IMG/VR virus record: IMGVR_UViG_3300013122_000021
Location: 1 to 25,117 of that record
Reading direction: 5' to 3' (one strand)
DNA: 25,117 bases
Source of the DNA: a virus
Below, piece after piece: positions 1,879 to 21,494 of this stretch; the stretch's first letter is position 1; each line of letters begins with the position of its first letter. The notes below the pieces were generated by a model. It was given only the letters and a program-made list of their open reading frames with translations. It did no database searches and was not told the DNA's origin. The position numbers and the translations under genes were made by a program.

Positions 1879-1916
1879 ACGCTAAAACCGCGCCCCGCAA
1901 GCAGTTACCGCCGTCA
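1879..1916 (-). promoter_or_regulatory. Repeated phage promoter element, copy 1 (leaderless type)
   Basis: TGACGGCGGTAAC (1904-1916), 19 bp, then TAGCGT (1879-1884). The 13-bp part is an exact consensus match. The TGA of the motif (1914-1916) is also the stop codon of the collagen-like gene. The predicted +1 is 1872, the first base of the next ATG. Promoter function is inferred from the constant geometry shared with the other copies. Confidence 0.75.
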
Positions 1917-2465
1917 GGCCATGCGAGACACCGCCAGCGCCAGCGTATTCGATGCGCCAAGCGCCAGCGCAGGGCCAGTGAAGCGGATTGCGATCTGATC
2001 CTTCGCAGTCACCCATGCGTTATGAACCGCGTATCCAGTGGGCATGGCGGAAGTCGGATCAGCGCGGATGATCTGGCCAACGGTCGCACCGGGACAGGCG
2101 ACTGTCAGCGTTCGCAAGCCGAGCGCGAGAGCGACCAGAGCGCGATCGACAATCTCGACCGTGCCGATCATCACCGTTCCGGGCGCGCCATCCTTGCCAT
2201 TCGTTCCGTTGGTGCCGTTTATTCCATCGCGCCCATTCGTGCCGTCTTTGCCCGCCGGACCTCGCAACGCCGGGTCTTTCGTGGGGTCGCTTACCAGCAT
2301 CACGGTCATGTTCGGCGCGATCGTCATGCCAGCGCTCATCAACGCGATCATGTAGGCACCGCGCGGCGGTCGCGAGTGCGAGGCCCTCAACCTGATACGA
2401 CCATCCTTGTTATCGGAAAGCGTCAGATAGATGCGCCGATATTCGTTCAGATCGATGTCGGTCAT
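1914..2465 (-). CDS. Tail fibre protein with collagen-like repeat
   Basis: 183 residues in three parts: an N-terminal region of about 65 residues rich in basic residues and beta-type stretches, ten consecutive Gly-X-Y triplets at residues 69-98 (GPA GKD GTN GRD and so on), and a C-terminal beta-rich domain rich in Ala, Thr and Leu. Collagen-like segments in phage proteins form rigid trimeric rods linking fibre domains. The ATG overlaps the stop of the tip protein gene (ATGA), with no clear Shine-Dalgarno site, so it is probably translated by coupling. It lies between the tip protein and the distal fibre genes, which fits a fibre linker on the tail tip. Confidence 0.75.
   Translation of the reverse strand: MTDIDLNEYRRIYLTLSDNKDGRIRLRASHSRPPRGAYMIALMSAGMTIAPNMTVMLVSDPTKDPALRGPAGKDGTNGRDGINGTNGTNGKDGAPGTVMIGTVEIVDRALVALALGLRTLTVACPGATVGQIIRADPTSAMPTGYAVHNAWVTAKDQIAIRFTGPALALGASNTLALAVSRMA
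2172..2261 (-). repeat. Collagen-like Gly-X-Y repeat, ten triplets
   Basis: Codes for ten in-frame Gly-X-Y triplets, rich in Asn-Gly and Lys-Asp at X and Y. The third-position sequence is varied, so the repeat is conserved at protein rather than DNA level. Confidence 0.9.
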
Positions 2466-4393
2466 TGCTGCACCAATGCTGGGTTACTGCCATCCCCACC
2501 GCCGCCACCGGGCGGTGTCGGAAGCGACGGGAATTCGCCATCGGTCGATGTGGCCTGCCAGCCTAGGAACACGTTGTCAGACGATGCCATGTCCGCCAGA
2601 GCCGGTTGCGCTGCCAGATGATAATCGTCGTCGCTCAGGCTGTAGAACAAGCCGAACACGATACCGGATGCCGCCGACAGCGATCCCGCAGGGAAATCGA
2701 CCTCCGTCCCATCGTCCAGAACGCCGCTGAACGCTTCTATGGTAACGGTCGTGTCGTCGCTGGTGATTGGATAGGCAACCGAGCGGCTAAGCAGGCGATA
2801 CGCCCCCCGTGCCACCGCCCCGACGATCGGGGAAAGCGCCGGATCATAGGGGGTCGGTGCCACCGCCTCGTTGCCAGCACCGTAAGCTGGTGGGTCGTAG
2901 AGATCGGGATGTTCCTCACGCAACAGCATCGGCACGACGCCATCCTCGCGATGCTCCAGCTCGACGACACGAAACAGCTTATCGACCCAGCCCCGCGGCT
3001 TGAACGACAGTGTGACGATCGCGTTTTTCTGCGCCCGCCAGCCCGTCGCCTGAAACTCGGCCCGGAACAGACCCGCGATCTTCTGGCGTTGCAGCCGAAG
3101 ATTGGCGAGACGTTGGGGCTGGTTCACCGACTGGATGAATGGGAAGTCGAGCGGCAAGACGCGATCAATGCCATCGGGGGATGCAAATTCGACCTGGGGA
3201 TAGTCGTTCGGTTGATACAGCGATGCGTTGCTCGGATCGATGTAGGTGCCCCGGACGATGTTGAACTGATCGTCGAGCGATACAGACGGACGCCATGAGA
3301 ATTCGCCCAGAATGTCGTCATCGGTGAACGCAGCTACCGGGCTGTCGAGATCGTTGTGGAAGATCGTCAGCCGCAGCTTGCCGCCGACATCATCCAGATC
3401 GGCGTTCATGGTGGCCTTGAGGTTGTCGAGAACCGCAGTCGGGCTGTCGCCTTCGGAGTAGATGCCAGCACTGCGATAGCGCGGCTCGGTGCCGCCTCCG
3501 GGGATCGACACCGGCTCGTCACAGATGTTCGCTGCGATGGCGAAACTTTCGAGATCGATGCGCGCGGGAGGGATACCCTTGCCAACTGCCAAAAGACCCT
3601 CGATGCGCCACCCCAAACAATAGGACAGCGCGACTAGCGCGGGATTATTGCACGCCCCTTCGTGCCATTCCCAAGTCGACTGATCGTCTGCCCGGTGCGA
3701 ACCCGATCCACCGGGGACGGTGCTGTCCTTCCGCGGGTCGTAGAGCAACATCCCGTCGCCGATAATTGTGATGCGAGACGGCACCGACTGATTAAATACG
3801 CTGTCGAGTTTCTTGGACTGAGCGAGGATTTGATAGCGCAGATAGACATAGGCACACCCGGTGTAGCGGCGCGACGATCCCATGCGGCTGCTTATATTGA
3901 TCGCGTTGGCGGCACTGCCTTCGGTGCGAATTTGAACCTGTAGCCACGGCGCGAACTCACCTTGCGGTCCACCGGCGAGCGTCCAGGCCAGCTTATCGTC
4001 GAACCAGATTTCGCGGATCGCGTGGACCTTGTGCGAGGCAACGACGATCCAGCGGTGAAGGTATTTCTGGCTTTCGGTATATTCCTGATCGCGGATATCG
4101 GTCGCCATCGCGGTTGAGCCGAACACAATCTTGCGCGGCGTGCGTGGGTCGATGTTGGCGTTAAGCCGATCGGTGGTATCGGTCAGGGGTGGCGGCGTGC
4201 CTTTGCCCGCCAATAGAGACGCGCCCACCGAAATCGCACCCGCGATCGTGGCGATCGTCCCTGCGGCAATGCTGGCACCAAACGCCGTAAATAGCATTGT
4301 TCCGCCCAGAACCGAGCCAATGCCTGAACCGATCAGAGCCACGGCCCCGACGACGCCAGCGATCTTTCCAACCGTCTTGAGCGCCCCACTCAT
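2462..4393 (-). CDS. Tail tip / central hub protein (lambda J-like)
   Basis: 643 residues from the ATG at 4393, which overlaps the previous stop as ATGA. A TTG nine bases upstream is less likely because it lies one base from the AAGGGG site. The N-terminus (about residues 1-65) is a long Gly/Ala-rich hydrophobic segment typical of phage hub proteins. Then come DPRTPRKIVFGS near residue 85, a hub-like beta-rich core, and a C-terminal region ending in a Pro/Gly linker (PTPPGGGGGDG) that probably joins the fibres. The order peptidase-like gene, then tip gene, then fibre genes is that of lambda K-I-J. The family call rests on the core and the position; exact domain limits are not visible by eye. 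Confidence 0.8.
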   Translation of the reverse strand: MSGALKTVGKIAGVVGAVALIGSGIGSVLGGTMLFTAFGASIAAGTIATIAGAISVGASLLAGKGTPPPLTDTTDRLNANIDPRTPRKIVFGSTAMATDIRDQEYTESQKYLHRWIVVASHKVHAIREIWFDDKLAWTLAGGPQGEFAPWLQVQIRTEGSAANAINISSRMGSSRRYTGCAYVYLRYQILAQSKKLDSVFNQSVPSRITIIGDGMLLYDPRKDSTVPGGSGSHRADDQSTWEWHEGACNNPALVALSYCLGWRIEGLLAVGKGIPPARIDLESFAIAANICDEPVSIPGGGTEPRYRSAGIYSEGDSPTAVLDNLKATMNADLDDVGGKLRLTIFHNDLDSPVAAFTDDDILGEFSWRPSVSLDDQFNIVRGTYIDPSNASLYQPNDYPQVEFASPDGIDRVLPLDFPFIQSVNQPQRLANLRLQRQKIAGLFRAEFQATGWRAQKNAIVTLSFKPRGWVDKLFRVVELEHREDGVVPMLLREEHPDLYDPPAYGAGNEAVAPTPYDPALSPIVGAVARGAYRLLSRSVAYPITSDDTTVTIEAFSGVLDDGTEVDFPAGSLSAASGIVFGLFYSLSDDDYHLAAQPALADMASSDNVFLGWQATSTDGEFPSLPTPPGGGGGDGSNPALVQQ

Positions 4394-4794
4394 ACCGCCC
4401 AAGCCCCTTGCCAGTCAGCGCGCGGCACGCGGACCAAGCCCCCACCCTCTCCTTCGGCGGCGATGAACAGCGCATAGGCACCGGCACAGACGCCCACCGC
4501 CTCACCATTCCAGATAAGGTCGCCGCGGTGAGCGAACGAGGGCTGTTTGCGCTCGAACATGCTATCGAGCGTCGATTCCAGATCGCCCGCACCGATGCGA
4601 CGCAACGCCTTGGCCGCACCGGTGGCGCTGTCATACTGCCCACGAAACGCAGCCGCGGGGTCGTCGCCCGTCATCGCCAGCACGGCCCCAGCGGCGAACA
4701 GCCCGCAATCGTCGCGACCGTAACGATATTCAACCTCCCGCATCGACGCGAGATAGTCGGACAGTGCGCGCTCCCAATTTGGCAGGCGCGTCAT
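4390..4794 (-). CDS. NlpC/P60-like tail protein (DUF6950 type)
   Basis: 134 residues. The segment YRYGRDDCGLFAAGAV carries the conserved cysteine (Cys30) of papain-like NlpC/P60 proteins, followed by MTGDDPAAAFRGQY, a pattern I associate with the DUF6950 phage family. In active NlpC/P60 enzymes a histidine follows in an HVG-type strand. The corresponding strand here seems to read AVGVCAG, without histidine; the only nearby histidine is His89 in FAHRGDLIW. Hydrolase activity is therefore doubtful. Both ends overlap neighbours by ATGA. The position directly before the tip protein matches lambda gpK, a tail protein linked to cell wall passage and tip assembly. Confidence 0.75.
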   Translation of the reverse strand: MTRLPNWERALSDYLASMREVEYRYGRDDCGLFAAGAVLAMTGDDPAAAFRGQYDSATGAAKALRRIGAGDLESTLDSMFERKQPSFAHRGDLIWNGEAVGVCAGAYALFIAAEGEGGGLVRVPRADWQGAWAV

Positions 4795-5438
4795 CGTATC
4801 GCCTGATTGTTGGAGAGTCCCCCGCCGCCGTAGTTGCTTGCGCCGGTCGGCACTGTCGCATTCGGGTTACCGGTCCCGCCGTTTGCAATGCCTATGGCAG
4901 CGCGCGCAGATAGGTCGCCGGGGTCGTAGCGCTCTTGGTCGAGATAAGACCGGTTGGACGCTCGCGAGAATGCCGCCAGATAGGTTTCGATCGTCACCCG
5001 GATCGTCTGCGATTCAGGCGAGCCGACCTGATCGAGCGCGACCATGTAACCGGTATAGTAAGCCTGGAGTGCCCCTTGCTGGACGTTGGCGCTGTCGCGG
5101 ATCATGCGCCACAGCCGCGCCGGTCGCCCCTGCCAGTTTGCCGGGTCGTCAATCTGGGCAAGCGTGTCGTCGTCGATGCCGGGGAGCCCGGAGATTTCAG
5201 CGGTAACGCTCTCGCTTCCACCCTCGCGCACGGACACCGACGAAACGCTCACGAATTTGTGCGACACCCCCAAAAACGGATGATCGTCAAGGTCAGGATC
5301 GCCAGTGCCGGTCGGCGTCAGCTCAAACCCGCTGCTGTTGGCGCGGATCGGGTCGTCCACGAAATCGAGAAATGCGAAGAATACCGGGCGGATATCACCG
5401 TCAAGCGCCGCCGCGGCTGTTGCGTCGGGAAGGCTCAC
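4791..5438 (-). CDS. Distal tail / hub-associated protein (DUF2163-like position)
   Basis: 215 residues, beginning with an acidic beta-rich region (RPVFFAFLDFVDDPIRA) and containing WQGRPARLWRMI, a phrase typical of proteins located between tape measure and tip in proteobacterial phages and gene transfer agents. The C-terminus is Gly/Asn-rich. The GTG start at 5438 overlaps the upstream TAG (TAGTG) and is preceded by GAGGAGG with seven bases of spacing. Tight overlaps on both sides place it in the distal tail operon. A structural role at the tail tip is likely; the specific family is uncertain. Confidence 0.65.
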   Translation of the reverse strand: MSLPDATAAAALDGDIRPVFFAFLDFVDDPIRANSSGFELTPTGTGDPDLDDHPFLGVSHKFVSVSSVSVREGGSESVTAEISGLPGIDDDTLAQIDDPANWQGRPARLWRMIRDSANVQQGALQAYYTGYMVALDQVGSPESQTIRVTIETYLAAFSRASNRSYLDQERYDPGDLSARAAIGIANGGTGNPNATVPTGASNYGGGGLSNNQAIR

Positions 5439-6040
5439 TACATGGCCTCCTCAACATCAAACGACCGCCCGCCGACGCCATTGGACCACGACAGACCGAT
5501 GCCGGGATCAGTCGAGGAAACCGGGCAATAGGGGTTCACGGATTCGACCGTCGCGCCCTCTTCCGGCGCTTCGTTGAGAGCGAAATTGCACACCGCCGTT
5601 GCTTCGCCGCTGCTGTCGGTAACGAGATCAGCAAGCAGGTTGACCAGTCGCGCGTGGCCCGACGGTAGCGGCACCGTCAGCCATTGCCCCGCCGACAGGA
5701 TGCGCGTTGACGGCTGCATCCCGACAAGGGGGAGGCTGTAGCCATCCGTCGCGCCTTCACCGACTGTCGGCATCGGGCCGATATGGCGCTGGCAACCGAC
5801 GCGCAGCTTGAACCAGTTTTCCTGACCCCGGAGCGCAAACAGGAACGCCCGCCACGGGCGCTCGGCAACCTCCGTCGCCAGTTGCTCGATCGTCACCGAC
5901 GCCATCCACATTTCAGCACCGGGAAGCCCAACGACCTTGCGCCGCCCAGTCCAGCCCGAGCGATTGACCTGGGCCGGAACGCGGGGATCAAGGCTGTCGA
6001 GCGTCAGACCGTCATAGTCGGGGACGAGGATTTCGGACAT
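5438..6040 (-). CDS. Distal tail protein, unidentified family
   Basis: 200 residues, beta-rich, with conserved-looking aromatic stretches (RPWRAFLFALRGQENWFKLRVG) typical of the distal tail protein that follows the tape measure in siphophages. I cannot name the family. It is the first gene after promoter copy 2: the ATG at 6040 lies exactly on the predicted +1 (TACCGC, six bases, ATG), with no Shine-Dalgarno site, so a leaderless message is predicted. It begins a chain of five overlapping genes (6040 to 1914) ending with the collagen-like fibre protein. Confidence 0.7.
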   Translation of the reverse strand: MSEILVPDYDGLTLDSLDPRVPAQVNRSGWTGRRKVVGLPGAEMWMASVTIEQLATEVAERPWRAFLFALRGQENWFKLRVGCQRHIGPMPTVGEGATDGYSLPLVGMQPSTRILSAGQWLTVPLPSGHARLVNLLADLVTDSSGEATAVCNFALNEAPEEGATVESVNPYCPVSSTDPGIGLSWSNGVGGRSFDVEEAM

Positions 6041-6046
6041 GGCCTA

Positions 6047-6084
6047 GCGGTATGGCGCGGGGTGCCTTTTCGTTACCGCCGTTA
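6047..6084 (-). promoter_or_regulatory. Repeated phage promoter element, copy 2 (leaderless type)
   Basis: TAACGGCGGTAAC (6072-6084, one mismatch), 19 bp, then TACCGC (6047-6052). The TAA of the motif is the stop codon of the tape measure gene. The predicted +1 is 6040, the A of the next ATG. Confidence 0.72.
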
Positions 6085-8787: not shown

Positions 8788-8809
8788 ACGTCCTCCAGGT
8801 TGCGCCCGA

Positions 8810-8847
8810 AGGCTAAGGGCGGCATGATTGCTCGGTTACCGCCGTTG
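8810..8847 (-). promoter_or_regulatory. Repeated phage promoter element, copy 3 (with leader and SD)
   Basis: CAACGGCGGTAAC (8835-8847, two mismatches), 19 bp, then TAGCCT (8810-8815). The predicted +1 is 8803, giving a 16-nt leader that contains GGAGG before the tape measure ATG. It gives the tape measure its own start site downstream of the inverted lipoprotein gene. Confidence 0.7.
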
Positions 8848-8857
8848 GGGATGTTGG

Positions 8858-9280
8858 ATGCGCCTACCAGTAATAGCCATCGCCGGGGTTGCACTGGGAT
8901 CATGCTCAACCGCTGAAAGCGCGGCGGTCGATGTATGTGAAAGCGCGCTGATGACTGAAATACGGTCCCCAAGCACCTATTCGCGAGTCAATACTTACAC
9001 ACCTGAACCAGCCAATGGATTTAGGGAGGTTGCGATAACTTATGACGCCGCGAATGCTTTTGGGACACCGGTCCGGGGCAGCAAGGTTTGCGTCTTCCGC
9101 GATAACAAAGACGGGTTACCCTCAAGGTCGGAGTTAGAAATTGATGCACTCACCGCCCAGACTGAGGCGGCGGCGCGGGTCAGAGAGGGGAAAAGCGTTT
9201 ATCGTAACGTAGGCGGGGTGACGATTGGCGAATGCTGCGTTCCTGATGCCAAGCTTCCGCCGCCTAACCCTGCCCCTTGA
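8858..9280 (+). CDS. Small lipoprotein, inverted moron-like gene
   Basis: 140 residues from the ATG at 8858; a TTG at 8828 would add ten residues before the signal peptide and is less likely. The N-terminus is a short lipoprotein signal (hydrophobic to LGSC, Cys16 lipidated). The mature part has IRSPSTYSRV and ITYDAANAFGTPVRGSKVCVF, a pattern I associate with small exported proteins of proteobacteria, plus several cysteines (Cys27, a CC pair near the end) that may form disulphides. It is the only plus-strand gene here and sits between tail chaperone and tape measure. Its DNA is poorer in GC (29 of 60 in the line at 8941). Such inverted, atypical genes are often expressed from prophages, for example for superinfection exclusion; that role is inferred. 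No Shine-Dalgarno site is clear. Confidence 0.8.
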   Translation: MRLPVIAIAGVALGSCSTAESAAVDVCESALMTEIRSPSTYSRVNTYTPEPANGFREVAITYDAANAFGTPVRGSKVCVFRDNKDGLPSRSELEIDALTAQTEAAARVREGKSVYRNVGGVTIGECCVPDAKLPPPNPAP

Positions 9281-9871
9281 ATATCCCCTGCATCATCTGG
9301 CGAAACTCGGGCGATGCAGGCTCATGCGCGCCCTTATCGGGCTGCGTCCGCTCGTTGTTCGCCTCGATCGCCTCCATGTAATCGGATAGCGAGGCGCGAT
9401 TATAATCAAGCCCCATCGCCGCACAGTTGACGATTACGTCGCCTTTTCGGTGGGGCTTTGCTCGCCCGCGTCCGGCTGCGCTTTTTTTTTGAGCGAAACG
9501 CCCATGATGGCCGCGTTCAATATCGCCCAGGCGACCGGCACTGTTTCGGACATGGGGCGACCGTCAACATAATCGTCAACAAGTCGCTTCGCCTCCAAAG
9601 GGCTGACCGGGTGGGATTTCTCTCCGTCATAGCGCTCGTTGCCGCCGATCGCAGCACAGCGTATGACCTCATACACATCCTTGATGCGGACGGGGCCAGC
9701 CCCAAAGAATTGCGGGCTTTCCTCCGATCCGCCCAGCCCCACGCTCATTTCCTCGTACATGAGGACGATGCTCTTATCACCGCAGAGACGCTCGACCTCG
9801 CAGATGCGGGCCATCGGAAGCCAGAAGGTATAACGGCCCCCTGCAAAGTCGAGCGTAATCGCGGTATCCAT
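9264..9871 (-). CDS. Tail assembly chaperone, predicted -1 frameshift fusion (G-T type)
   Basis: The upstream frame (9434-9871) can continue past its stop if ribosomes slip back one base on the A9 run. I translated the -1 frame by hand: it stays open from the slip site to TAG at 9264-9266, adding about 72 residues to the first 130 (about 202 in all). The added part includes AAMGLDYNRASLSDYMEAIEANNE-like alpha-helical sequence and ends FRQMMQGIFKGQG, typical of the T part of siphophage G-T proteins. The chaperone pair coats the tape measure during tail assembly and is not in the virion. Its last 17 bp overlap the end of the convergent lipoprotein gene. Confidence 0.75.
9434..9871 (-). CDS. Tail assembly chaperone, unshifted product (G type)
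   Basis: 145 residues, starting MDTAITLDFAGGRYTFWLPMARICEVERLCG, the common opening of GTA-gp10-like and TAC-type tail chaperones (a beta hairpin followed by a helix beginning around ICEVE). It follows the major tail protein by two bases and precedes the tape measure region, the invariant position for this gene. The C-terminal 15 residues after Lys130 are lost in the shifted product. No strong Shine-Dalgarno site is present, so translation is probably coupled to the gene upstream. Confidence 0.85.
   Translation of the reverse strand: MDTAITLDFAGGRYTFWLPMARICEVERLCGDKSIVLMYEEMSVGLGGSEESPQFFGAGPVRIKDVYEVIRCAAIGGNERYDGEKSHPVSPLEAKRLVDDYVDGRPMSETVPVAWAILNAAIMGVSLKKKAQPDAGEQSPTEKAT
9481..9490 (-). 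other. Slippery site for -1 frameshift (A9 G)
   Basis: On the minus strand the frame reads CTC AAA AAA AAA G (Leu-Lys-Lys-Lys). A run of nine A followed by G allows tandem -1 slippage (A AAA AAG type) and is the classic phage tail chaperone signal. I did not confirm a stimulatory hairpin downstream. Confidence 0.75.
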
Positions 9872-9873
9872 CG

Positions 9874-10311
9874 TTAGGCTTCAGCCCAGACCAGTTCGCC
9901 ATCGCCCGAAAGCGTAACTTCGCCGGTGCCTTCCTCGCCAAACGCCTTGTTGTTCGAGGTCAGGACAGCAGCACCCGAATAGGTGCCGATGATCTCGCCG
10001 GTGTCGGTGCCGTCGCGCTTGCCGAGATCGACCTGCCAGTTGCGGCTGATCCCCAGCGCGGTCTTGAGACGATCGATTTCGTCCATGTTGAACACGCCAG
10101 AGCCGGTGATATCCCACTGCGTCCCGGTTACGAACGGCTTGCGCGTCGGCGGAAGGCCGGGCTTCGCGCAATCGCGCCGGAAGCGGTCGTTGGTGTTCGC
10201 CGTTTCGTTGATCGAGATGTTGTCGATCCCGCAAACGATGGTGAAGACTTCGGGCGTTTCGCCGTCGCCCAGCTTGAGAATTGCGAAATCAGGTTCGTTA
10301 GGTGCGGCCAT
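9874..10311 (-). CDS. Major tail tube protein
   Basis: 145 residues with a beta-rich pattern and the C-terminal GEVTLSGDGELVW strand typical of tail tube proteins (GTA TP901-1 type). Internal phrases such as NTNDRFRRDCAKPG and the TQWDITGSGVFN strand resemble proteobacterial siphophage tube proteins. It is placed immediately before the tail chaperones, the expected order. It is first after promoter copy 4; its mRNA would have a 21-nt leader containing AGAGGA before ATG 10311, suitable for high expression of an abundant protein. Confidence 0.88.
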   Translation of the reverse strand: MAAPNEPDFAILKLGDGETPEVFTIVCGIDNISINETANTNDRFRRDCAKPGLPPTRKPFVTGTQWDITGSGVFNMDEIDRLKTALGISRNWQVDLGKRDGTDTGEIIGTYSGAAVLTSNNKAFGEEGTGEVTLSGDGELVWAEA

Positions 10312-10338
10312 TTTGCGTTCCTCTGGCTATTTGCCGGA

Positions 10339-10376
10339 ACGCTATCGGGTGGCGCTATTCGCCGTTACCGCCGTCA
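10339..10376 (-). promoter_or_regulatory. Repeated phage promoter element, copy 4 (with leader and SD)
   Basis: TGACGGCGGTAAC (10364-10376, exact), 19 bp, TAGCGT (10339-10344). The predicted +1 is 10332, with a 21-nt leader holding AGAGGA before the tail tube ATG. The six bases after TAGCGT (TCCGGC) are identical to those in copy 1. Confidence 0.78.
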
Positions 10377-10597: not shown

Positions 10598-10609
10598 GAC
10601 ACAGAGGCG

Positions 10610-12656: not shown

Positions 12657-12662
12657 GGGCGG

Positions 12663-12700
12663 ACGCTAACCAGCGGCTCGCGAGCGCGTTACCGCCGTCA
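12663..12700 (-). promoter_or_regulatory. Repeated phage promoter element, copy 5 (leaderless type)
   Basis: TGACGGCGGTAAC (12688-12700, exact), 19 bp, TAGCGT (12663-12668). The TAG of the -10-like box is the stop codon of the upstream repeat protein. The predicted +1 is 12656, the A of the connector ATG. Confidence 0.77.
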
Positions 12701-14561
12701 CCGTGCGGGCGCGAAGGCGACCGGCGGTATGACGTGGGAGATTGTCGCCAGATGTAATTCGTGGCTCATATGGTTGACTTACCTGCCGGGATATCTGCGC
12801 GCCACGCGCTGTTCTAGCGAGCGGGGTCGGGGGACGCTCGCCCACCACCCCGCGCGCTTCGCCGGTCAGCGACAGCCCGCCTTCGATCACCGCCAGAATT
12901 ACCGTGCTGGCAGTGCCTTGGCCTTCAAACTCAATGTTGCCCGATGCCGATCCGATGACCGAGGTGTCAGCCTGCGCTGTTCCGTAGAGGTCGATCGATC
13001 CATTCGCCGTCCCGGTGACAGCAGCGGAAGCCACAGCCTGCCCGGTTAGACTTATATCCCCTTGCGCTGCCCCGGAGATGGCCGGAGAGCCGCTTGCCGT
13101 CCCCGTTAGTGCGATCGTGCCCGATGCGTTGACAATGGCCTCAGACACACCCTCCGAAGCCGTGCCGGTGATCTCCAATGTCCCGGCTGCATCGCCGCTG
13201 ATTGCGCTAGTCGCCGCACCGGTGCCTGCCAGGTCAATTCCGCCCGATGCATCCGCTGCGATCGCCGTGCTTGCCGATGCGATCCCTGACAGCACAAGGT
13301 TGCCGCTCGCGTCGGATGCGACCGCAACCGTCCCCGATGCTGTGCCGCCGAATGCCAGAGAGCCGGTTGCGTCTCCGCTAATCGACGTGCCGCCCGACGC
13401 CTGCCCGGTCAGATCAACCGAGCCGCTTGTATCTCCTGTTACCGTTGGCGAGCCCGTTGCGCTTCCGTCGAACCCTATCGTGCCGCTAGCATCGCCAGTG
13501 ATCGTGTCCACAGTGTCGCCGGTCGCCGTGCCGTCGAGTGCAATCGACCCGCTCGCGTCGGCGTTGATCGAACCCGTTGCCTCGCCTGATCCGCTTAGCG
13601 CGACCGAACCGGTAGCAGCGGCCTGCGTCGTTACCGTACCCGTTGACGATCCAGTCAGCGCTATCGAACCGCTGGCGGTGCCGATGACCTCGCCCGGCTC
13701 TCCACCGCCCCCGGCATCGTCATAGATCAGGACAATGCCGCCGGGAGCGCCGATGCCCGCGCTGGTTACATGGCCCGCGCCGCCGCCGCCGCCCCAGCCC
13801 CCACCGTTGCCACCGGGGCCGGCCCGTGAGCCGCCACCACCACCTCCCGGCCCCGCCGTTGCTGCGTCACTGGTTTGGGTCCAAATGTCGTATTGAGCGC
13901 CGTTGCCACCAGCAACGGTGTTGGCAGATGCGGCACCGGTGCCACCACCGCCGTTTGCCGCCTCGATAATCGCATTTGAAGCAGATAGCCCGCCCTGGCC
14001 ATCTCCTTCTGGGCCAGCACCGCCGCTGTAATTCGGGTATGTAAGCGTCGCCTGCAACCCCGCAGTCGATGATCCTCCATTGCAGCCACCGCCGCCACCA
14101 CCAAGGTTTCCGCTGGACGCGGTAGCCCCAAATCCCGCTCGCCCAACACCATCCGGGCCAGCAGCACCGCCGCCTCCACCGCCCCCAGCGCCGGTGCGAT
14201 CGCCACCCTTACCGCCGGAAAACTTGGTCGAGCCGACACTTGTCGTTGCCTGCCCACCCTGCCCCGCCGCAGTGGTCGTAGCGTTGGCACCGGCCTTAGC
14301 CAGAACTTCCGACGTTGACGAAAACCATGTGTCCTGCGCCGATCCGCCCGCGCCAATCTGGCACGAAACGGAGGTGCCAGGCGAAACGGTTACGGTTTTG
14401 AAGGCGTAGGCACCGCCGCCACCACCACGCTTCTGACCCGATGTAATTGATAGCGAGCCGCTACCGCCCGCGCCGACGCAATGAACATCAACCGACGAAA
14501 CGCCAGCCGGGACCGTCCAACTGGTCGTTCCGGCTTGCAGAAATACGATGATTGTCGCCAC
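12666..14561 (-). CDS. Glycine-rich and 20-residue-repeat virion protein, probable head fibre or decoration
   Basis: 631 residues from GTG 14561 (GGGAG seven bases upstream). Residues 1-30 start as a glycine-rich domain protein (FLQAGTTSWTVPAGVSSVDVHC). Residues about 30-285 have many Gly runs (GGGGGAGG-like), as in phage adhesins whose glycine segments pack as polyglycine helices. Residues 296-570 hold fourteen repeats of about 20 residues, ASGSIALTGTATG-like, suggesting a beta-solenoid or stacked beta rods. The last 60 residues are Arg/Pro-rich, unlike the rest. It lies between capsid and connector genes, so a head fibre or capsid-surface protein is more likely than a tail fibre. Function is inferred from composition and position. 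Confidence 0.8.
   Translation of the reverse strand: MATIIVFLQAGTTSWTVPAGVSSVDVHCVGAGGSGSLSITSGQKRGGGGGAYAFKTVTVSPGTSVSCQIGAGGSAQDTWFSSTSEVLAKAGANATTTAAGQGGQATTSVGSTKFSGGKGGDRTGAGGGGGGGAAGPDGVGRAGFGATASSGNLGGGGGGCNGGSSTAGLQATLTYPNYSGGAGPEGDGQGGLSASNAIIEAANGGGGTGAASANTVAGGNGAQYDIWTQTSDAATAGPGGGGGGSRAGPGGNGGGWGGGGGAGHVTSAGIGAPGGIVLIYDDAGGGGEPGEVIGTASGSIALTGSSTGTVTTQAAATGSVALSGSGEATGSINADASGSIALDGTATGDTVDTITGDASGTIGFDGSATGSPTVTGDTSGSVDLTGQASGGTSISGDATGSLAFGGTASGTVAVASDASGNLVLSGIASASTAIAADASGGIDLAGTGAATSAISGDAAGTLEITGTASEGVSEAIVNASGTIALTGTASGSPAISGAAQGDISLTGQAVASAAVTGTANGSIDLYGTAQADTSVIGSASGNIEFEGQGTASTVILAVIEGGLSLTGEARGVVGERPPTPLARTARGAQISRQVSQPYEPRITSGDNLPRHTAGRLRARTVTAVTRSRAAG
12852..13676 (-). 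repeat. Fourteen tandem 20-residue repeats (coding)
   Basis: Protein residues 296-570 repeat a unit of about 20 residues with consensus ASGxIxLxGxAxGxxxIxGD. DNA copies are diverged at third positions, so selection acts on the protein. Two units are slightly longer (21-22 residues). Confidence 0.85.
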
Positions 14562-14586
14562 GGGCTATCTCCCGCCCGTGCCGGGG

Positions 14587-14991
14587 TTATGCGCCGCCAG
14601 CGTTCAGGGTGAAGGCCGAAACAGTGATCGGCTGCGTATTCGCAATCGACGTATTGACCAACGCCATTTCGCCATCGCCTGCGGTCGTTCCCATGACGAT
14701 CGGTCCCTGAATATGTGTCGTCGCGCCCTGCTTGATACGAAAGTGACCCGCTGTGCCAGCAGCCGATGCGGTCAACGACCAAGTGCCAGCTTTTGCCTTT
14801 GATCCACCCGATGCGGCGGCTAGCCAGTCACTTGGGAGTGCCCCGCTCGCAAGCAACGTCCCGCTGTCCGCCGTGCCCGCCGTCGCCGGTGCCGAACCCG
14901 TGCGGATTTCCAGCGTCGGCGCGGTGCCTGCGGTGCTTTCGATCGCGTCAAGCGCAGCGTTCCGGGCTGCTGTCGAGAATTGGAATGCCAT
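14587..14991 (-). CDS. Small virion-type protein upstream of the repeat protein, family unknown
   Basis: 134 residues, Ala/Thr/Gly-rich and beta-type (SWSLTASAAGTAGHFRIKQG-like strand region, then TQPITVSAFTLNAGGA at the end). The N-terminus FQFSTAARNAALDAIESTAG is a helix also seen in a family of proteobacterial phage structural proteins, whose function I do not know. It begins the transcription unit of promoter copy 6, with an 18-nt leader containing CAGGGA, and ends 26 bp before the repeat protein. A partner or base for the glycine-rich protein is plausible. Confidence 0.65.
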   Translation of the reverse strand: MAFQFSTAARNAALDAIESTAGTAPTLEIRTGSAPATAGTADSGTLLASGALPSDWLAAASGGSKAKAGTWSLTASAAGTAGHFRIKQGATTHIQGPIVMGTTAGDGEMALVNTSIANTQPITVSAFTLNAGGA

Positions 14992-15015
14992 TCGGAGTTC
15001 CCTGCTGTTTCCGCG

Positions 15016-15053
15016 ACGCTATGCCCCGACCCGTCCATTCGTTACCGCCGTCA
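15016..15053 (-). promoter_or_regulatory. Repeated phage promoter element, copy 6 (with leader and SD)
   Basis: TGACGGCGGTAAC (15041-15053, exact), 19 bp, TAGCGT (15016-15021). The predicted +1 is 15009, followed by an 18-nt leader with CAGGGA before ATG 14991. It starts two bases after a terminator T-run, which supports a fresh transcription start. Confidence 0.8.
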
Positions 15054-15054
15054 C

Positions 15055-15088
15055 AAAAAAGGGCCGCCCAACCCAAGCTGGACGGCCC
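15055..15088 (-). terminator. Intrinsic terminator after the capsid block
   Basis: On the minus strand a nine-base-pair GC stem (GGGCCGTCC and GGGCGGCCC, one G-T wobble) with an 11-base loop is followed directly by six T. It lies just after the small acidic gene and just before promoter copy 6, so it separates the capsid unit from the repeat-protein unit. Confidence 0.88.
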
Positions 15089-15107
15089 GTGAGGAATGAC
15101 CCCCTGC

Positions 15108-15293: not shown

Positions 15294-15306
15294 CGTTCAA
15301 TCCTCC

Positions 15307-16398: not shown

Positions 16399-16410
16399 CG
16401 GTCAGCCCCC

Positions 16411-16863
16411 TTAGCGCTTGGCCAGCTTGACCAGCGCGCCATTCGCGCCGGTCGTGTCGAAGAACCATCCCGGAAGGATGACGTTAGAACCCACGGTATC
16501 GACGATCGCACCGCCGGACGTGGCGTAAGCCTGTGCCCCATCGGTGACGGCTTCGCCCGCGGTCACCCAGATTACGCCCTGGGTCATGATCGCGACGTTT
16601 TCATACTGCGGATATTCGTCGGCATCCTGACCAGCGAGGCGACCGAGCGCTTCGTGCGCGATCGTCATGCCGAGGAATGCGCCCGCCGCCGGGGTGGCGG
16701 TGCAGCCATGGTCCCCGGTGCCACGAAAAGCAGCGACACCGAAGCCGATGCCGCCCGCGTCTTCGCAGGTCCGCGTGATGCGGTTGGAGGTTTCGCCATT
16801 GGCGACCATGCCGGGATAACCGGCGGCGGGAAATTCGGTGTAGGTCGTCTGAACTTCGGCCAT
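16411..16863 (-). CDS. Capsid decoration / structural cement protein
   Basis: 150 residues, beta-rich, starting MAEVQTTYTEFPAAGYPGMVANGE, which is the usual opening of the phage structural cement family (Phage_cement-like, formerly near DUF2190). Residues VWVTAGEAVTDGAQAY-like (near 105) form the typical strand that sits on the capsid. Proteins of this class bind the outside of the capsid and stabilise it after expansion. AAGGGG lies seven bases before ATG 16863. It lies between scaffold and capsid genes, as in related phages. Confidence 0.8.
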   Translation of the reverse strand: MAEVQTTYTEFPAAGYPGMVANGETSNRITRTCEDAGGIGFGVAAFRGTGDHGCTATPAAGAFLGMTIAHEALGRLAGQDADEYPQYENVAIMTQGVIWVTAGEAVTDGAQAYATSGGAIVDTVGSNVILPGWFFDTTGANGALVKLAKR

Positions 16864-16874
16864 TGGTGTTCCCC

Positions 16875-17384
16875 TTAACCGGCGTTGCGGAGCATGCGCG
16901 CGGTGTCGCGCACGGTGGCGGTGTCATTCGCGATGACGGGCGAGCCGAGCGACTGAACCTGAGCCTGGGCAGGCTTCGCGTCCTTGGTCAGCGCATCGAA
17001 CGCGATGGCGACGTGATCGGCGGTGTAATCCTTCGCCGCGTCACCCATCTTCGCGTCCACGACCGCCTTCTTGATCGCGGCGGTGTCGGCATCGGCTGCA
17101 AAGGCAACGCCCAGCGCCTTGGCCTTGGCCTGCGTGTCGGCAAACTGCTTGGCAGCATCAGCCAGCTTAGCGGGCGTGATAGCCGCGTCAGCCAGCTTCG
17201 CTTTCAGGTCCGCGATCTCCGCGTCTTTGGCCACGATGGTTGCGGCATCGGTGACGGCCTGGGCTTCCGCCGCGGCCTTTTGGCTGTTCGCATCGGCAAT
17301 AGCCGCCTGCAATTTCGTGATTGCTGCCTCCGCTTCGTCGGAGACGTTCGGGACACGAAGCCCGTCGATCGTCAAAGTCTTCAT
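16875..17384 (-). CDS. Nested scaffold protein (internal in-frame start)
   Basis: An in-frame ATG at 17384 has GGAG eight bases upstream and begins exactly where the protease domain ends and the coiled-coil scaffold begins (MKTLTIDGLRVPN). The separate 169-residue product would be free scaffold, as with Nu3 inside gene C in lambda. The many Ala-Asp-Lys heptads (about residues 25-95) support an elongated helical protein. Independent translation is inferred from the ribosome site. Confidence 0.65.
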   Translation of the reverse strand: MKTLTIDGLRVPNVSDEAEAAITKLQAAIADANSQKAAAEAQAVTDAATIVAKDAEIADLKAKLADAAITPAKLADAAKQFADTQAKAKALGVAFAADADTAAIKKAVVDAKMGDAAKDYTADHVAIAFDALTKDAKPAQAQVQSLGSPVIANDTATVRDTARMLRNAG

Positions 17385-17999
17385 GGGAATATCTCCGGTG
17401 GGAGGGCTCGAAAGGCGCGCCACCGCCTCGGGATTTGCGTCACAGACGGCGAAAGCGTCAGCGATGCGGCACTCGGAACCGGCACGGCCCCGATCGACGA
17501 GGGCGACGTGATTGCCGCCCGTGATTTTGGATTGGCGGACTGGGCATTTCGTGCCGTCCGCTGCGGTGAATTCGCCGAATTCCAGTTCGGCGCCGTATCC
17601 GTTCGACAGCTCGCGCTTGCCCGCATCGACCTTGGCAATCGCATCGCCATCGGTCAGCAGTAGGTCGAACGCGAGATAATCGCCCTCGCGCATCGCGCCC
17701 ATGATCGTGCCGCGCGCGTGTTGCCGCCAGTTATCCTTGGTGACCGCCTGGGTGGGATGATCGTCGGTGACCGGCTTGCCGATGAACGACTGAACCGCGC
17801 TCTTGTCGAACACGGTGTTTTCGTCGCGAAGGACGTTGACAAGCGCGGTGTCGCGCAGGCCATGCGCGTTGTCGGGATCGACTTCGCGGCCAGCATATTG
17901 GTAGACGCCCGTGCGCGCCGCCTTGGCCCGAACAGCGAGATAGCCGTCACGGGTTCGGCGGGGGGCGTCCAGCGTCAGATGGTCATGCAGAAATGCCAT
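16875..17999 (-). CDS. Prohead protease fused to scaffold (DUF2213 type)
   Basis: 374 residues from the ATG at 17999. Residues about 10-195 match the DUF2213 phage family: TRDGYLAVRAKAARTGVYQYAG, GKPVTDDHP (His81), ELSNGYGAELEF (Ser132) and ITGGNHVALVDRGRAG. These are candidate His-Ser catalytic residues of a head maturation protease. Residues about 205-374 are a long Ala/Lys/Asp-rich helix, a scaffold. A strong internal start lies at the junction. The start at 17999 is one base after the predicted +1 of promoter copy 7 and has no good Shine-Dalgarno site; a TTG at 18026 lies upstream of the predicted -10 box and is rejected. Confidence 0.85.
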   Translation of the reverse strand: MAFLHDHLTLDAPRRTRDGYLAVRAKAARTGVYQYAGREVDPDNAHGLRDTALVNVLRDENTVFDKSAVQSFIGKPVTDDHPTQAVTKDNWRQHARGTIMGAMREGDYLAFDLLLTDGDAIAKVDAGKRELSNGYGAELEFGEFTAADGTKCPVRQSKITGGNHVALVDRGRAGSECRIADAFAVCDANPEAVARLSSPPTGDIPMKTLTIDGLRVPNVSDEAEAAITKLQAAIADANSQKAAAEAQAVTDAATIVAKDAEIADLKAKLADAAITPAKLADAAKQFADTQAKAKALGVAFAADADTAAIKKAVVDAKMGDAAKDYTADHVAIAFDALTKDAKPAQAQVQSLGSPVIANDTATVRDTARMLRNAG

Positions 18000-18006
18000 G
18001 TGCGGG

Positions 18007-18044
18007 ACGGTACTCGCGCCCCGCAATATGGTTTACCGCCGTCA
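18007..18044 (-). promoter_or_regulatory. Repeated phage promoter element, copy 7 (leaderless type)
   Basis: TGACGGCGGTAAA (18032-18044, one mismatch), 19 bp, TACCGT (18007-18012). The predicted +1 is 18000, one base before the protease ATG. It leads the capsid unit that ends at the terminator at 15055-15088. Confidence 0.75.
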
Positions 18045-18055
18045 GGTGGGGTAGC

Positions 18056-18286
18056 TTATTCCTCAGTGATGCGTGTGGCCATTATCCCTCGCGCGACAAT
18101 TTCATAGCTGTCGTCGTCGATGCGATTAACGCCGTTCCCATCTTCATCCTCGACCCTCATCATGCCCTTAATGGTCGCGTTAGGATTTCCGAATGAGCCC
18201 GCGGGAATGATCTGCTGATAAATTCGAAGCGTTTCCACCTCTCCACGCTCAGTCCGAACACGAAACTGCTCGACCAACTGCTCCAT
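18056..18286 (-). CDS. Small hypothetical protein in a low-GC insert
   Basis: 76 residues from the ATG at 18286, which has a near-perfect GGGAGGA five bases upstream; the longer frame to 18331 lacks this. The sequence is acidic with beta-type alternation (ERGEVETLRIYQQIIPAG, then RIDDDSYEIVARGIMATRI), a compact single domain. No family was recognised. The hand-counted line at 18181 has 29 of 60 GC against 40 of 60 in nearby portal DNA. It follows the lipoprotein gene by 45 bp and was probably acquired with it. Confidence 0.72.
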   Translation of the reverse strand: MEQLVEQFRVRTERGEVETLRIYQQIIPAGSFGNPNATIKGMMRVEDEDGNGVNRIDDDSYEIVARGIMATRITEE

Positions 18287-18331
18287 TAATTCCTCCCTAA
18301 TGACGTTGTTTTGCCCGCAGACAGGCGACAT

Positions 18332-18667
18332 TCACTGATAGCAAGCGCGTCCATTGTTAAACCCATCCGCGATATTGTTCTTCCGCCGGGCTTCAACTCG
18401 CGTTCCGCCATCTACCGCTGTCAGCGTATAGTGGAATACGACCCCAGCAGGCCCGATTGAGAACATCACTTCGGCTCTTTGGTCATTGCCAGTCGTCAAT
18501 GGAGTGCGCCCTACTGCCCCGAGCGTGGCCAAGAGGCAGTCTCGAACAGCCGGTAGCGCTTGCTTTGTTACCACGTCGTCCTGAACCTCGCGGGCCTTGA
18601 TGTCGTTAAGCGAAGTAACGCAGCCCGAGAGCGCTAAAGACCCAGCGATAATTGCGATGAATTTCAA
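18332..18667 (-). CDS. Small lipoprotein in the head gene cluster
   Basis: 111 residues starting at TTG 18667, with GGGGGA six bases upstream and no ATG near the signal peptide. MKFIAIIAGSLALSGC is a classical lipoprotein signal with lipobox LSGC (Cys16). The mature part has two more cysteines (CLLATLG region and the C-terminal ACYQ), which could pair, and a beta-type region (AEVMFSIGPAGVVFHYTLTAVDGG). It lies between the Mu F-like and protease genes, where no export function is needed for assembly. Phage lipoproteins can block superinfection or alter the cell surface; that is an inference. DNA is GC-poor like its neighbour. Confidence 0.75.
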   Translation of the reverse strand: MKFIAIIAGSLALSGCVTSLNDIKAREVQDDVVTKQALPAVRDCLLATLGAVGRTPLTTGNDQRAEVMFSIGPAGVVFHYTLTAVDGGTRVEARRKNNIADGFNNGRACYQ

Positions 18668-18720
18668 TGGCTGTCCCCCGAGAAAAAGAATGCCACCGTA
18701 TCAGCGCCTTGAGTTCAGGC

Positions 18721-19521
18721 CTAATCGAAAGTCACCACCGCCCGCGATCGGCATCCACAATACGGAAGCTGCCCCGGCCTGTCCTGTGGTGCGGTCGCGT
18801 CCGTGTATTCCCGCCCGTCGCGCGCTTGATGATCGGCGCGAGGATGGCGCTTGCGCGAGTGAAGCCAGACCCACGTATCAATCCCCGCCTCGCGCCGCCG
18901 TTCGTCCGCCAGCGAGTTGCTGATCTTCGATAGCTGATCCGCGGCGATCCGCTGCGACCGATCTCGCGCCATGCCCACGGCCTCGCGTATCTCACGCGCC
19001 ACGTCTCGCGCGGCCTTGCGCTGCGTCAGCCCGGCGAACACGCGATCGGCTATGCGCTTCCGTGTCTGGTCCGAAACGTCGCGGATCAAGTCGGTGTTCC
19101 AGCGCAGATACGCCTCGATCGTGTCGCGCATATCCTCCGGGCCAATCAGCGTTTGCAGATCCACGCCAGTCGCGGACAGCACGGCACCGCGCCACCGCCC
19201 TCTAACCCAACGCTCGGTATCGAGCGCCCAATCTCGCAATTCCGGGCGTAATTCCATGAACAGCCGTTGAAACTCGCTCTCGCCATCCTCCAGTTCGCGC
19301 TGGATATCGGCGGGGCTGTCGGTCGTCATTGCGGACAGGGCGCGCTCGTATTCCGTCATGATGCGGTCGATACGGCGCTGCCACAGGGCGACGACGCGGG
19401 CATAGGTGCGATGATACAGGTCCGTCGCCATTGTGGCGGGTGCGCTGATCTCGCGCAGGACAATGCGGTTGCGGCGGATGTTGCGCTGGCGGCGAGCTAG
19501 GGTGGCGAGCGAGTAACGCAT
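18721..19521 (-). CDS. Mu F-like minor head protein
   Basis: 266 residues from the ATG at 19521, which overlaps the portal stop (TGATG) and has GAGGAG five bases upstream. The C-terminal region from about residue 217 (WVWLHSRKRHPRADHQARDGRE, then the cysteines of LPYCGCRSR) is the characteristic motif of the Mu gpF / SPP1 gp7 head morphogenesis family. The remainder is helical and charged. The family enters the prohead with the portal and in some phages leaves with DNA. Position directly after the portal agrees. Confidence 0.9.
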   Translation of the reverse strand: MRYSLATLARRQRNIRRNRIVLREISAPATMATDLYHRTYARVVALWQRRIDRIMTEYERALSAMTTDSPADIQRELEDGESEFQRLFMELRPELRDWALDTERWVRGRWRGAVLSATGVDLQTLIGPEDMRDTIEAYLRWNTDLIRDVSDQTRKRIADRVFAGLTQRKAARDVAREIREAVGMARDRSQRIAADQLSKISNSLADERRREAGIDTWVWLHSRKRHPRADHQARDGREYTDATAPQDRPGQLPYCGCRSRAVVTFD

Positions 19522-21449
19522 CACCGCTCCTCGATTTTCGACTTCCAATCCAGATCGAGTGCCTCGAAAATTTCAGGCCCGAACCGCAGTTCGCCGTTGA
19601 ACGGAACAATCGCATCCAGATTGACACCCTCGGGCAAGGCGTAGCTGATCGTCACGTGCGGCGCGTATTCTGGCCAGTCATGCGAACCGCCTGCCTCTCG
19701 CATTTCGCGATGACGGTATTCCAGGTCAGGCGCGGCGAACCGCAAGACGACGGCATTCTCGCCAAGCTGTTCGATCACGCGCGGGCCACCGGGGCGCACG
19801 GTGAGGTGCCCCTGTTCGTCTTCTGCCCACGAACGCCCCATCTTCATGGGATCGACCGCAGCACGCGAATACAGGACGGTGACGTGCATATCGGTGGCGG
19901 GCAGCGTGGTATCGAAGCCGTTGGCTTTAGCCCAGGCGATCAGGTCATCTGCGTTCAGTAGCTTTCGCTGGACATAGAGCGGGCGCGGTGTCGCATCCGC
20001 CATCCACGATGCAGCATCATTCGCCGCACGCGCAAACGCCCGTCTTCCACCGGGCGCTCGCGACGTGGGAGATAGTAGTTGATCCCCTCCTTCCTGCTGT
20101 TGCTGGGTTAGAGCGCTGGGGTCGCCGCCGTCATCCTCTGGCATACCGCCAAAGCGCAGCGCCTTGGGGATTTCTGACAGCGCGCCGTCAAGTCCGGGCA
20201 TGTATTCCCGCTCGCTCATAAGGTTCTGGACGGCCTTGTTGAAAGCCACCTCAGGGATCGACCCGGTGTTTTGCAGCTTCTCAACCGCTTCCATCGTGGT
20301 CTTGAAAGTATCCGCCTCTTCCTTCTCGCTCGGCACATCGAGCGGGGCAAAGCGCCAGGTGACCTTGGCAGGTTCAGACACCCCCGCCGATCGGATCAGG
20401 AACGGGTCAAGTTGTTCGAGGCATGGGCGCGTTTCGAGGCGCTGCCCGGATGCCACGGCCTTATGCCAGTTGGCGGTGTCATGTTCGCCGGTGGCGTTCA
20501 TTCCCGCCGGTGACCGCCCCATAAGCCGCGTGAACGGAATATCTGCGACCGCGGCGACCCGCTGGTCGAAGGCGTCCATCATGGCCGGGATGCCGGCCCA
20601 CGTGATCTGATAGTCGTTGATCTTTTCGCCCGACTTGTCCGATCCGTCGCCCGCGTCATAGACCACGGCATTGAGCGTGCTTTCACCCTCAGCGATCAGG
20701 GCGATGCGGCTGTTCAAGCGAGTCTGCCCACCGTCCGTCGAAACCATGTTGCTGAGATCGGGAATCCCCACCCGCAACAGCTTGGCCTTCTTGACCAACG
20801 CCGCGAACCAGTCCTGCGCATGATCCGACCGCTGCACCTCATGAAACACGCGCAGCAGGCGGCTATCGCCCCAGAACGCATCCTCCATCGACACCGTGTG
20901 ACCGGCGGGGAGAGGGTCGCCACGAAAGCAGATGACACGCGACGGGTGGATGGCCTGTTGCCGTCCGTTCCCGCTGATCTGGAACATCGTCGGCTTGCCG
21001 TATTCGGGATGTGCGAGGTCGCTGATCCAGTCGCGCCCGGTTAGCTGCCAGCGCGACACGACATTGAGCGCGATGATACCGTCAGCGCGCACGGTTTCGG
21101 CGGCCAGAGGCGTGGCATGGTCGCCCGCGGTGATGACGATGATCGCACCGCCGCCAATACCGCGCAGGATTTCAGCCGCCTTCACCTTGGCGATCAGACC
21201 GAGACGGCGTTCCTCGTCCTCAAGCTTGCCAATCGCGTCGCTGTCCGCCTGCCAGTCGCGCCATTCGCGGACCCGATCCTCGGCGGGGATGGCGATGACC
21301 TTGCGGAGCATCCCGCTCGACATGTAGGCGGCGACCGCCAGTTGATGCGAGAAAGCACCCGGGATGCCCGTCGCCTGTGCGCGTCCGAACGGGTTGAGGG
21401 TGGAGACTGCGCCGATCGCGCTCCTCAGACTGTCAGTGATCCACGCCAT
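19521..21449 (-). CDS. Portal protein (DUF1073 type) with C-terminal Acb1-like 2H phosphoesterase domain
   Basis: 642 residues. Residues about 30-430 are a DUF1073-type portal, including GRSPAGMNATGEHDTANW at about 311-328. After a Gln/Gly/Arg-rich linker (about 440-485), residues 488-642 match the Acb1 family of 2H phosphoesterases. The two HxT motifs are MHVTVLYS (His522, Thr524) and PHVTISY (His598, Thr600), and the family's YVQRKLLNADDLIAWAK-type helix precedes them. Acb1 of phage T4 cleaves cyclic di- and trinucleotides and defeats CBASS immunity. Fusion would place about a dozen copies on each portal ring. ATG 21449 is one base after the predicted +1 of promoter copy 8 and lacks a Shine-Dalgarno site. 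Confidence 0.88.
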   Translation of the reverse strand: MAWITDSLRSAIGAVSTLNPFGRAQATGIPGAFSHQLAVAAYMSSGMLRKVIAIPAEDRVREWRDWQADSDAIGKLEDEERRLGLIAKVKAAEILRGIGGGAIIVITAGDHATPLAAETVRADGIIALNVVSRWQLTGRDWISDLAHPEYGKPTMFQISGNGRQQAIHPSRVICFRGDPLPAGHTVSMEDAFWGDSRLLRVFHEVQRSDHAQDWFAALVKKAKLLRVGIPDLSNMVSTDGGQTRLNSRIALIAEGESTLNAVVYDAGDGSDKSGEKINDYQITWAGIPAMMDAFDQRVAAVADIPFTRLMGRSPAGMNATGEHDTANWHKAVASGQRLETRPCLEQLDPFLIRSAGVSEPAKVTWRFAPLDVPSEKEEADTFKTTMEAVEKLQNTGSIPEVAFNKAVQNLMSEREYMPGLDGALSEIPKALRFGGMPEDDGGDPSALTQQQQEGGDQLLSPTSRAPGGRRAFARAANDAASWMADATPRPLYVQRKLLNADDLIAWAKANGFDTTLPATDMHVTVLYSRAAVDPMKMGRSWAEDEQGHLTVRPGGPRVIEQLGENAVVLRFAAPDLEYRHREMREAGGSHDWPEYAPHVTISYALPEGVNLDAIVPFNGELRFGPEIFEALDLDWKSKIEER

Positions 21450-21456
21450 ACTGGTA

Positions 21457-21494
21457 TGGGTATGGCGGTCAGGTGTGGGCGGTTACCGCCGTCA
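21457..21494 (-). promoter_or_regulatory. Repeated phage promoter element, copy 8 (leaderless type)
   Basis: TGACGGCGGTAAC (21482-21494, exact), 19 bp, TACCCA (21457-21462, the weakest -10-like box of the clear copies). The TGA of the motif is the TerL stop codon. The predicted +1 is 21450, one base before the portal ATG. Confidence 0.72.

Follow-up and report, generated by a model that had tools for sequence, protein, structure and literature searches.

What switches on the structural genes of a mostly uncultured group of phages, for whose structural genes we found no regulatory system in the literature? The question is raised by a repeated element in a single IMG/VR virus record, IMGVR_UViG_3300013122_000021. 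Its 25,117 bases (the window, meaning the whole stretch analysed, which is possibly a fragment) have no near DNA match among named phage records. Eight times, the window carries a 13-bp box, a 19-nt spacer (N19), and a hexamer beginning with TA. We consider it probable that this element is a phage late promoter, read by a small phage-encoded helix-turn-helix (HTH) activator together with the host RNA polymerase.

The eight copies lie at the coordinates given in a preliminary description of the window, and a search allowing up to three mismatches returns exactly these eight. Shuffled sequences gave a mean of 0.01 matches and a maximum of 1. All copies lie on the minus strand, the one that codes for the adjoining genes, as had been claimed. 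The spacer is 19 nt in all eight, and the 13-mer is exact in five (those at 1879, 10339, 12663, 15016, and 21457). The hexamer had been given as TA(G/C)CGT; this holds in full for five copies and gives way to TACCGC, TAGCCT, and TACCCA in the other three.

Each copy precedes a gene on its own strand. The predicted late promoter at 21457..21494 (box TGACGGCGGTAAC, hexamer TACCCA) stands 7 nt before the ATG of the portal gene (19521..21449, minus strand), and that at 18007..18044 (box TGACGGCGGTAAA, TACCGT) stands 7 nt before the ATG of the head protease gene (16875-17999, minus strand). Three further predicted promoters, each 6 nt from an ATG, probably give leaderless transcripts: those at 12663..12700 (exact box, TAGCGT; ATG 12656), 6047..6084 (box TAACGGCGGTAAC, TACCGC; ATG 6040), and 1879..1916 (exact box, TAGCGT; ATG 1872). 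The remaining three have longer leaders that hold ribosome-site-like words. These are 15016..15053 (exact box, TAGCGT; 24-nt leader with AGGG, ATG at 14991), 10339..10376 (exact box, TAGCGT; 27-nt leader with AGAGGA, ATG at 10311), and 8810..8847 (box CAACGGCGGTAAC, TAGCCT; 22-nt leader with GGAGG), the last preceding a long tape-measure-like gene (ATG 8787). None of the eight lies directly upstream of the terminase large subunit gene (21492..22976, minus strand).

Related phages place the element in the same manner. The 38-bp pattern matched 31 stretches in IMG/VR, some of them maybe by chance, and a capsid protein search led to 45 loci. Among 32 whole virus records, chosen since the pattern or the capsid gene led to them, the exact 13-mer occurs in 18, always on one strand per record, and a reversed control pattern occurs in 0. 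Twenty box-bearing records, the window included, hold 3-9 copies each, and 119 of the 123 sites in 20 records lie 3' of the gene for a small HTH protein. The four exceptions comprise two sites at the end of the HTH gene, one in a record where the late genes wrap around the ends, and one, in G018, that is unexplained. Random placement relative to genes had been set beforehand as the outcome that would speak against promoters. Instead, the sites of each record share a strand, precede genes, and lie 3' of the putative regulator gene. Together with the fixed geometry, this placement supports the reading of the element as a promoter.

The box differs between phages, and its copies have changed in concert. 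We saw six boxes, labelled A to F. In G017 the sites have GGAGG in place of GGCGG, while G026 (class B) uses GAACCTACA, again with N19 before the TA. G012 and G020-G023 share the box GCGTCCGTAG; L046 has GGGTATAAA and L055 has CTCCGTAAC, each before three genes. Host genomes reached through the HTH protein added box A at eight sites in G109 and a new box, ACGACGGTAA, at six sites in G180. In the 45 capsid-gene loci, coding-strand and other-strand counts are 64 and 2 for class A, 16 and 0 for class B, and 62 and 4 for class C. Further box-like words (AGCCGTAAT and ACGTAAA) precede portal and protease genes in L073 and L187, which suggests that there are more classes. In G014 (23324-23399 of the oriented record; L128-L130), the class A box of the protease gene has a class C box that begins 32 bp further upstream, which may be a relic of box conversion.

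Searches without a preset box recovered the classes in part. Unrestricted 10-mer strand enrichment was drowned in coding bias. A word search that required a downstream TA and ATG ranked a class A-type box first in 11 of the 21 records; in G026 the class B box came first. It missed box A in G011 and G030, though both have it. A de novo search brought out a shared box ahead of at least two genes in 50 of 136 sources, some of them duplicates. It did not recover class C because most sites of that class lack a TA at the expected place.

The geometry of the element is phased to start codons. The common frame is a box of 9-13 bp, N19, TAnnnT, and then either an ATG 6-7 nt on or a leader. The following counts are from loci fetched by protein only, and they refer to distinct sites, which are not independent by descent. 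In class A, the ATG falls 30-33 nt after the box at 74 of 104 sites, against 5, 6, and 8 in control intervals of 24-27, 34-37, and 40-43 nt. Of the 104, 63 have a TA at offset 19, no other offset between 12 and 26 has one more than 9 times, and an A occupies -11 in 91. Class C keeps the same distance to the ATG (67 of 97 sites; controls 6, 3, and 2). The ATG position in these loci thus fits the placement of the box at -44 to -32 that the preliminary description had proposed. In a larger set that includes pattern-fetched loci, the ATG lies 30-33 nt after the box at 116 of 192 sites, and of the 140 class A sites whose TA lies at 18-20, 130 place it at 19, although loci L006-L036 came from the N19 pattern itself, so that spacer counts in this set lean to 19. 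Two sites have an 18-nt spacer (L027:4233 and L028:9408), and there the distance from hexamer to ATG is still 6. Where the ATG of a class A site is far, a loosely defined ribosome site is present in 30 of 45 cases. Besides the box, no second conserved hexamer was found near -35, and a sigma-70 promoter scan of the window reported none of the eight elements. The TGA of the box closes an open frame of at least 60 codons at 36 of 84 sites, a modest excess over random TGAs (382 of 1400).

A candidate reader of the box is encoded 5' of the terminase genes. In the window, this gene (23292..23516, minus strand) specifies a 74-aa HTH-like protein (MNMTTGALKAYSTRR...), and members of the family, likewise encoded before the terminase genes, are 65-107 aa long. 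In an all-versus-all clustering of reading frames from 21 records, the HTH family was the sole coding-strand cluster outside the head-tail block to reach at least 19 records, after six unrelated members had been removed by hand. A profile built from 19 HTH proteins gained G026 and missed only G015, a record that has none of boxes A-C and no room for a promoter before its portal or protease gene. The predicted structure has four helices (mean predicted local distance difference test, pLDDT, 78); a second model, A1, was poor (pLDDT 64). The family appears to be undescribed. Four representatives gave best E values of 0.1 in Pfam (PF10391) and 0.16 in PHROGs, with no match in NCBIfam; the best match in a viral fold library was an unnamed protein (E 0.04), and a profile of ten HTH proteins found nothing below E 0.57 in the PDB. 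A second HTH cluster, XRE/HTH_23-like, occurs in 11 records (e.g., G008 9337-9819).

The preliminary description had left the reader as either a phage-encoded activator or a sigma factor. A small HTH activator is now favoured, and a phage-encoded sigma factor is disfavoured by family searches of the 21 records, a set to which the window does not belong. Sigma70_r2 (PF04542) matched 0 of the 21, while its control matched in 10 of 14 genomes, and Sigma70_r4 (PF04545) matched none over the cut-off, with four sub-cut-off matches in 3 of the 21. A T7-type polymerase gave no match in these records, but its control gave none either.

The exact 38-bp pattern occurs in six stretches of genome_contigs (84,980 genomes), four of them sphingomonad. 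By eye, two of the four lie among phage genes (L082 and L083), one has a second element (L085), and one lies by an integrase-like gene (L087); the two other stretches, L084 and L086, we judge to be chance matches. The HTH protein is present in 6 of 149 genomes of the family of Sphingomonas montanisoli, that genome, with its prophage on contig NZ_VTOU01000003, included. At least five copies of the 13-mer occur in only two of the 149, both HTH-bearing, and the others have at most two copies. A third HTH-bearing genome, G183, has one class C box. Across the class, in 289 genomes, only the starting genome matched the HTH. A host promoter is therefore disfavoured, since the four sphingomonad stretches lie in or beside phage genes by eye and clusters of the 13-mer occur only in HTH-bearing genomes. 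Among 50,697 records of named phages, one (uncultured MT836812) encodes an HTH homologue, and box A occurs there once. None of boxes A-F is present in the read stretches of L229 and L230, two named phages with similar capsid genes; the capsid protein of L229 (OM868076.1), a phage named for Synechococcus, is 59.8% identical to that of the window over 92%.

Box class co-segregates with the segment that holds the HTH and portal genes. The HTH protein alone, used as query, led to 65 loci, and boxes were tallied over 71 sources after 16 rows had been dropped. Twelve of these rows came from contigs that were also represented by whole records, L190 repeats the contig of L174, the HTH matches of L171 and L201 were spurious, and L165 (a TNWR-type HTH with box A once) was dropped without need. 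Box A accompanies the TNWR-type HTH in 25 of 25 sources. The GWR-type HTH (n = 39) goes with box C in 32, box A in 2, and no box in 5, and other HTH types (n = 7) go with box A in 5, box D in 1, and none in 1. The two types were defined after the HTH profile results had been seen, single-site labels are included (5 of the 32 C and 2 of the 25 A), and L204 and L205, which have the same HTH, were counted apart.

Trees of different genes differ in how well they fit the box classes. On the HTH tree, box class changes four times, the minimum being three. On trees of the major capsid protein (MCP; n = 48), the protease (n = 57), and DUF2190 (n = 44), it changes 14, 15, and 13 times, near the means for shuffled labels (17.4, 20.6, and 16.4, respectively). 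The class labels on these trees count every box in a locus, the protease box included, so that the 57 of 57 matches between protease box and class are partly circular. We also compared portal and protease boxes directly: of the 58 loci with both genes, 55 have the same class at both, and three lack one or both boxes. Sorted by HTH type, the protease box is A in 22 of 22 TNWR-type loci, and C in 27, A in 2, and absent in 1 of the GWR-type loci. A diffusible factor predicts both the agreement between portal and protease boxes and a protease box that tracks HTH type.

Several observations weigh against this reading of the HTH protein and the element. Trees of portal (n = 61) and g145 (n = 22) each need three changes and fit as well as the HTH tree; box class is tied to a linked gene set, within which the HTH gene is not singled out. 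We prefer the HTH protein within this set because it is the DNA-binding-like member. The mapping of type to class is not simple, as box A accompanies several different HTH subtypes. The five boxless GWR-type loci, together with L212, contain none of the tested boxes, and two of the six HTH-bearing host genomes (G082 and G048) have a weaker HTH match with no recognised box nearby. Fold comparison (Foldseek) gave no PDB match at E ≤ 0.001. For a homeodomain/Myb-like three-helix fold, the best second-look match among eight chains, to a SANT2 domain (VIA Z 4.2 over 59 residues), was not convincing. The claim of a uniform -10 has a real gap: TA is missing from offset 19 at 41 of the 104 class A sites, and in class C it occurs at offset 19 in 8 of 97 sites and at 20 in 7, so class C must have a different -10. 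Finally, 80% of 44 leader-bearing sites have a purine at the predicted +1, but in the protein-fetched set this holds for only 10 of 15.

The equal fit of the portal and g145 trees also bears on the idea that the same promoters are served by another trans factor, whether a linked phage protein or a host activator that varies from host to host. We give this a rather small chance. A possible second regulator does adjoin the HTH gene in the window: an LmbU-like gene (23522..24079, minus strand; NF038070 at E 9e-17, scoring 61.5 bits where the cut-off is 125) lies directly upstream, and the HTH gene begins 5 nt after its stop. As a common factor it was rejected, since relatives occur in only 9 of the 21 records. 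Clustering at E 1e-6, which a small divergent protein could escape, gave no further common cluster outside the head-tail block, and the box is not clustered in host genomes lacking such a prophage. Alternatively, the HTH protein could act as an antiterminator of the Q or GafZ kind, or could appropriate sigma, loading at these promoters and modifying the polymerase. Caulobacter GafZ, from an alphaproteobacterial phage-like cluster, binds within the gene transfer agent promoter and antiterminates, and its predicted HTH is sigma-like (PMC11150451); in the window, one promoter has a strong terminator-like hairpin immediately upstream. We regard this as unlikely, though not negligibly so, because the 3-9 sites per record are spread across the late region and have no recognisable -35 of their own, which argues for initiation at each; moreover, the box lies upstream of -32, whereas the GafZ site lies between -35 and -10.

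Two further alternatives concern repression and translation. The boxes might be repressor operators or stoperator-like sites that silence late genes in a lysogen. They are 13-bp, asymmetric, and in one orientation, much like the start-associated sequences (SAS) of cluster K mycobacteriophages, in whose description the 13-bp stoperators of L5 are mentioned (PMC3203893). Yet phasing to the ATG, phasing to the -10 in class A, and the lack of a recognisable -35 all suit an activator, and the HTH gene heads the late operon, as does that of the late regulator Ltr of a staphylococcal phage (PMC13123087); a repressor role is accordingly quite improbable. The hexamer, 6-27 nt from start codons, could also suggest that the element acts in translation in the way of a start-associated sequence, a role we hold to be very improbable. 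With an ATG 6-7 nt from the hexamer, a ribosome site would not fit and the box is 31-32 nt distant, and the three window sites with a far ATG keep box, N19, and hexamer together rather than tracking the ATG.

If the element is a late promoter served by the HTH protein, as we favour, then regulation may run as follows. The protein, made from the gene just before the terminase genes, would bind the asymmetric box at about -44 to -32 and take the place of a -35 element. It would recruit host RNA polymerase with its housekeeping sigma factor, and the latter would read TAnnnT at -12 to -7. Transcription would start about 7 nt after the hexamer, mostly at the A of the ATG, giving a leaderless mRNA; the remaining starts would yield a leader, often with a ribosome site. 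Several structural operons could in this way be switched on together by one protein. Versions of the protein would differ between phages, with matching boxes changed in concert.

Ogr of phage P2 is a phage late activator, and the arrangement proposed here has partial counterparts in several other systems. One is the set of T4 middle promoters, which work by a MotA box and sigma appropriation. In these, the box of a phage activator stands for the -35 and the -10 of host sigma70 is kept (PMC2988021). There, the MotA box is centred at -30 and lies 12 ± 1 bp from the -10. The spacing differs here, as the box, of 9-13 bp, occupies -44 to -32 and is separated from the -10 by 19 bp. MotA is, by description, a two-domain protein (PMC2988021), unlike the four helices predicted for the 65-107 aa HTH family; relatives of MotA or AsiA were not searched for. 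The late promoters of Mu carry -10 and -35 elements that depart from consensus, and the Mu C site is upstream of the -35 (PMC4461284). Mu C and staphylococcal Ltr resemble the present candidate in being phage activators of late genes, but Ltr acts at the promoter P23, which has four direct repeats (PMC13123087). In the available material on Mu C and Ltr, there is no mention of leaderless geometry or of switched box classes.

By setting, the nearest alphaproteobacterial regulator is GafYZ of Caulobacter. GafA and GafYZ, activators of gene transfer agents in alphaproteobacteria, are late-gene regulators derived from phages. GafZ has a predicted HTH and GafY contacts sigma70, but GafZ serves a single target, a palindrome between -35 and -10, and GafY needs integration host factor (PMC11150451). 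Here, by contrast, there are several asymmetric boxes upstream of -32. The SAS and extended SAS of cluster K are also short and asymmetric; these repeats stand immediately ahead of an ATG, share an orientation for the most part, and are nearly absent from the host, but they lie in the non-structural half, contain a Shine-Dalgarno core, and sit 3-7 bp from the ATG (PMC3203893). The boxes described here precede structural genes, have no Shine-Dalgarno core, and lie about 31 nt from the ATG. In Deinococcus-Thermus, TANNNT a few bases before the ATG drives leaderless mRNA; those are host promoters with little need for other sequence (PMC12340547), whereas the present element has a conserved upstream box and a phage setting.

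The window has other features of note. The strong terminator-like hairpin at 15061-15088, with a T run, is directly upstream of the element at 15016-15053, and the end of one operon and the start of the next promoter may coincide there. An open frame on the opposite strand (8828-9280), with a lipoprotein-like start by eye, overlaps the element at 8810-8847 and is a possible added gene. The 631-aa product of the frame at 12666-14561, again judged by eye, has a head rich in glycine and contains many degenerate ASGSIALTG-like repeats. The window portal protein is a Phage_portal_3 domain fused to a C-terminal Acb1-like domain (PF23474, E 1.4e-39), Acb1 being directed against the cyclic-oligonucleotide-based antiphage signalling system (anti-CBASS).

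Taken across the group, the data allow a wider picture, which we offer tentatively and which could fail about as readily as it holds. Sphingomonad phages (hosts are not stated for the IMG/VR records) may possess at least five matched and rapidly diversifying pairs of activator and promoter, boxes A-E each with their own HTH types; box F was seen in a locus without an HTH gene. An HTH protein of an undescribed family would replace the -35 contact. The 5' part of the box would act as a specificity code, with the 3' GTA(A/G) kept in most classes (B and E excepted), and late mRNA would be mostly leaderless. Capsid modules would be swapped freely, with their promoters converted to the resident class. 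If true, this would account for promoters that stay compatible with a single regulator in modular phages. It would also offer ready, compact activator-promoter pairs for use in alphaproteobacteria, and the evolution of regulator specificity would become directly testable through the exchange of one small gene.

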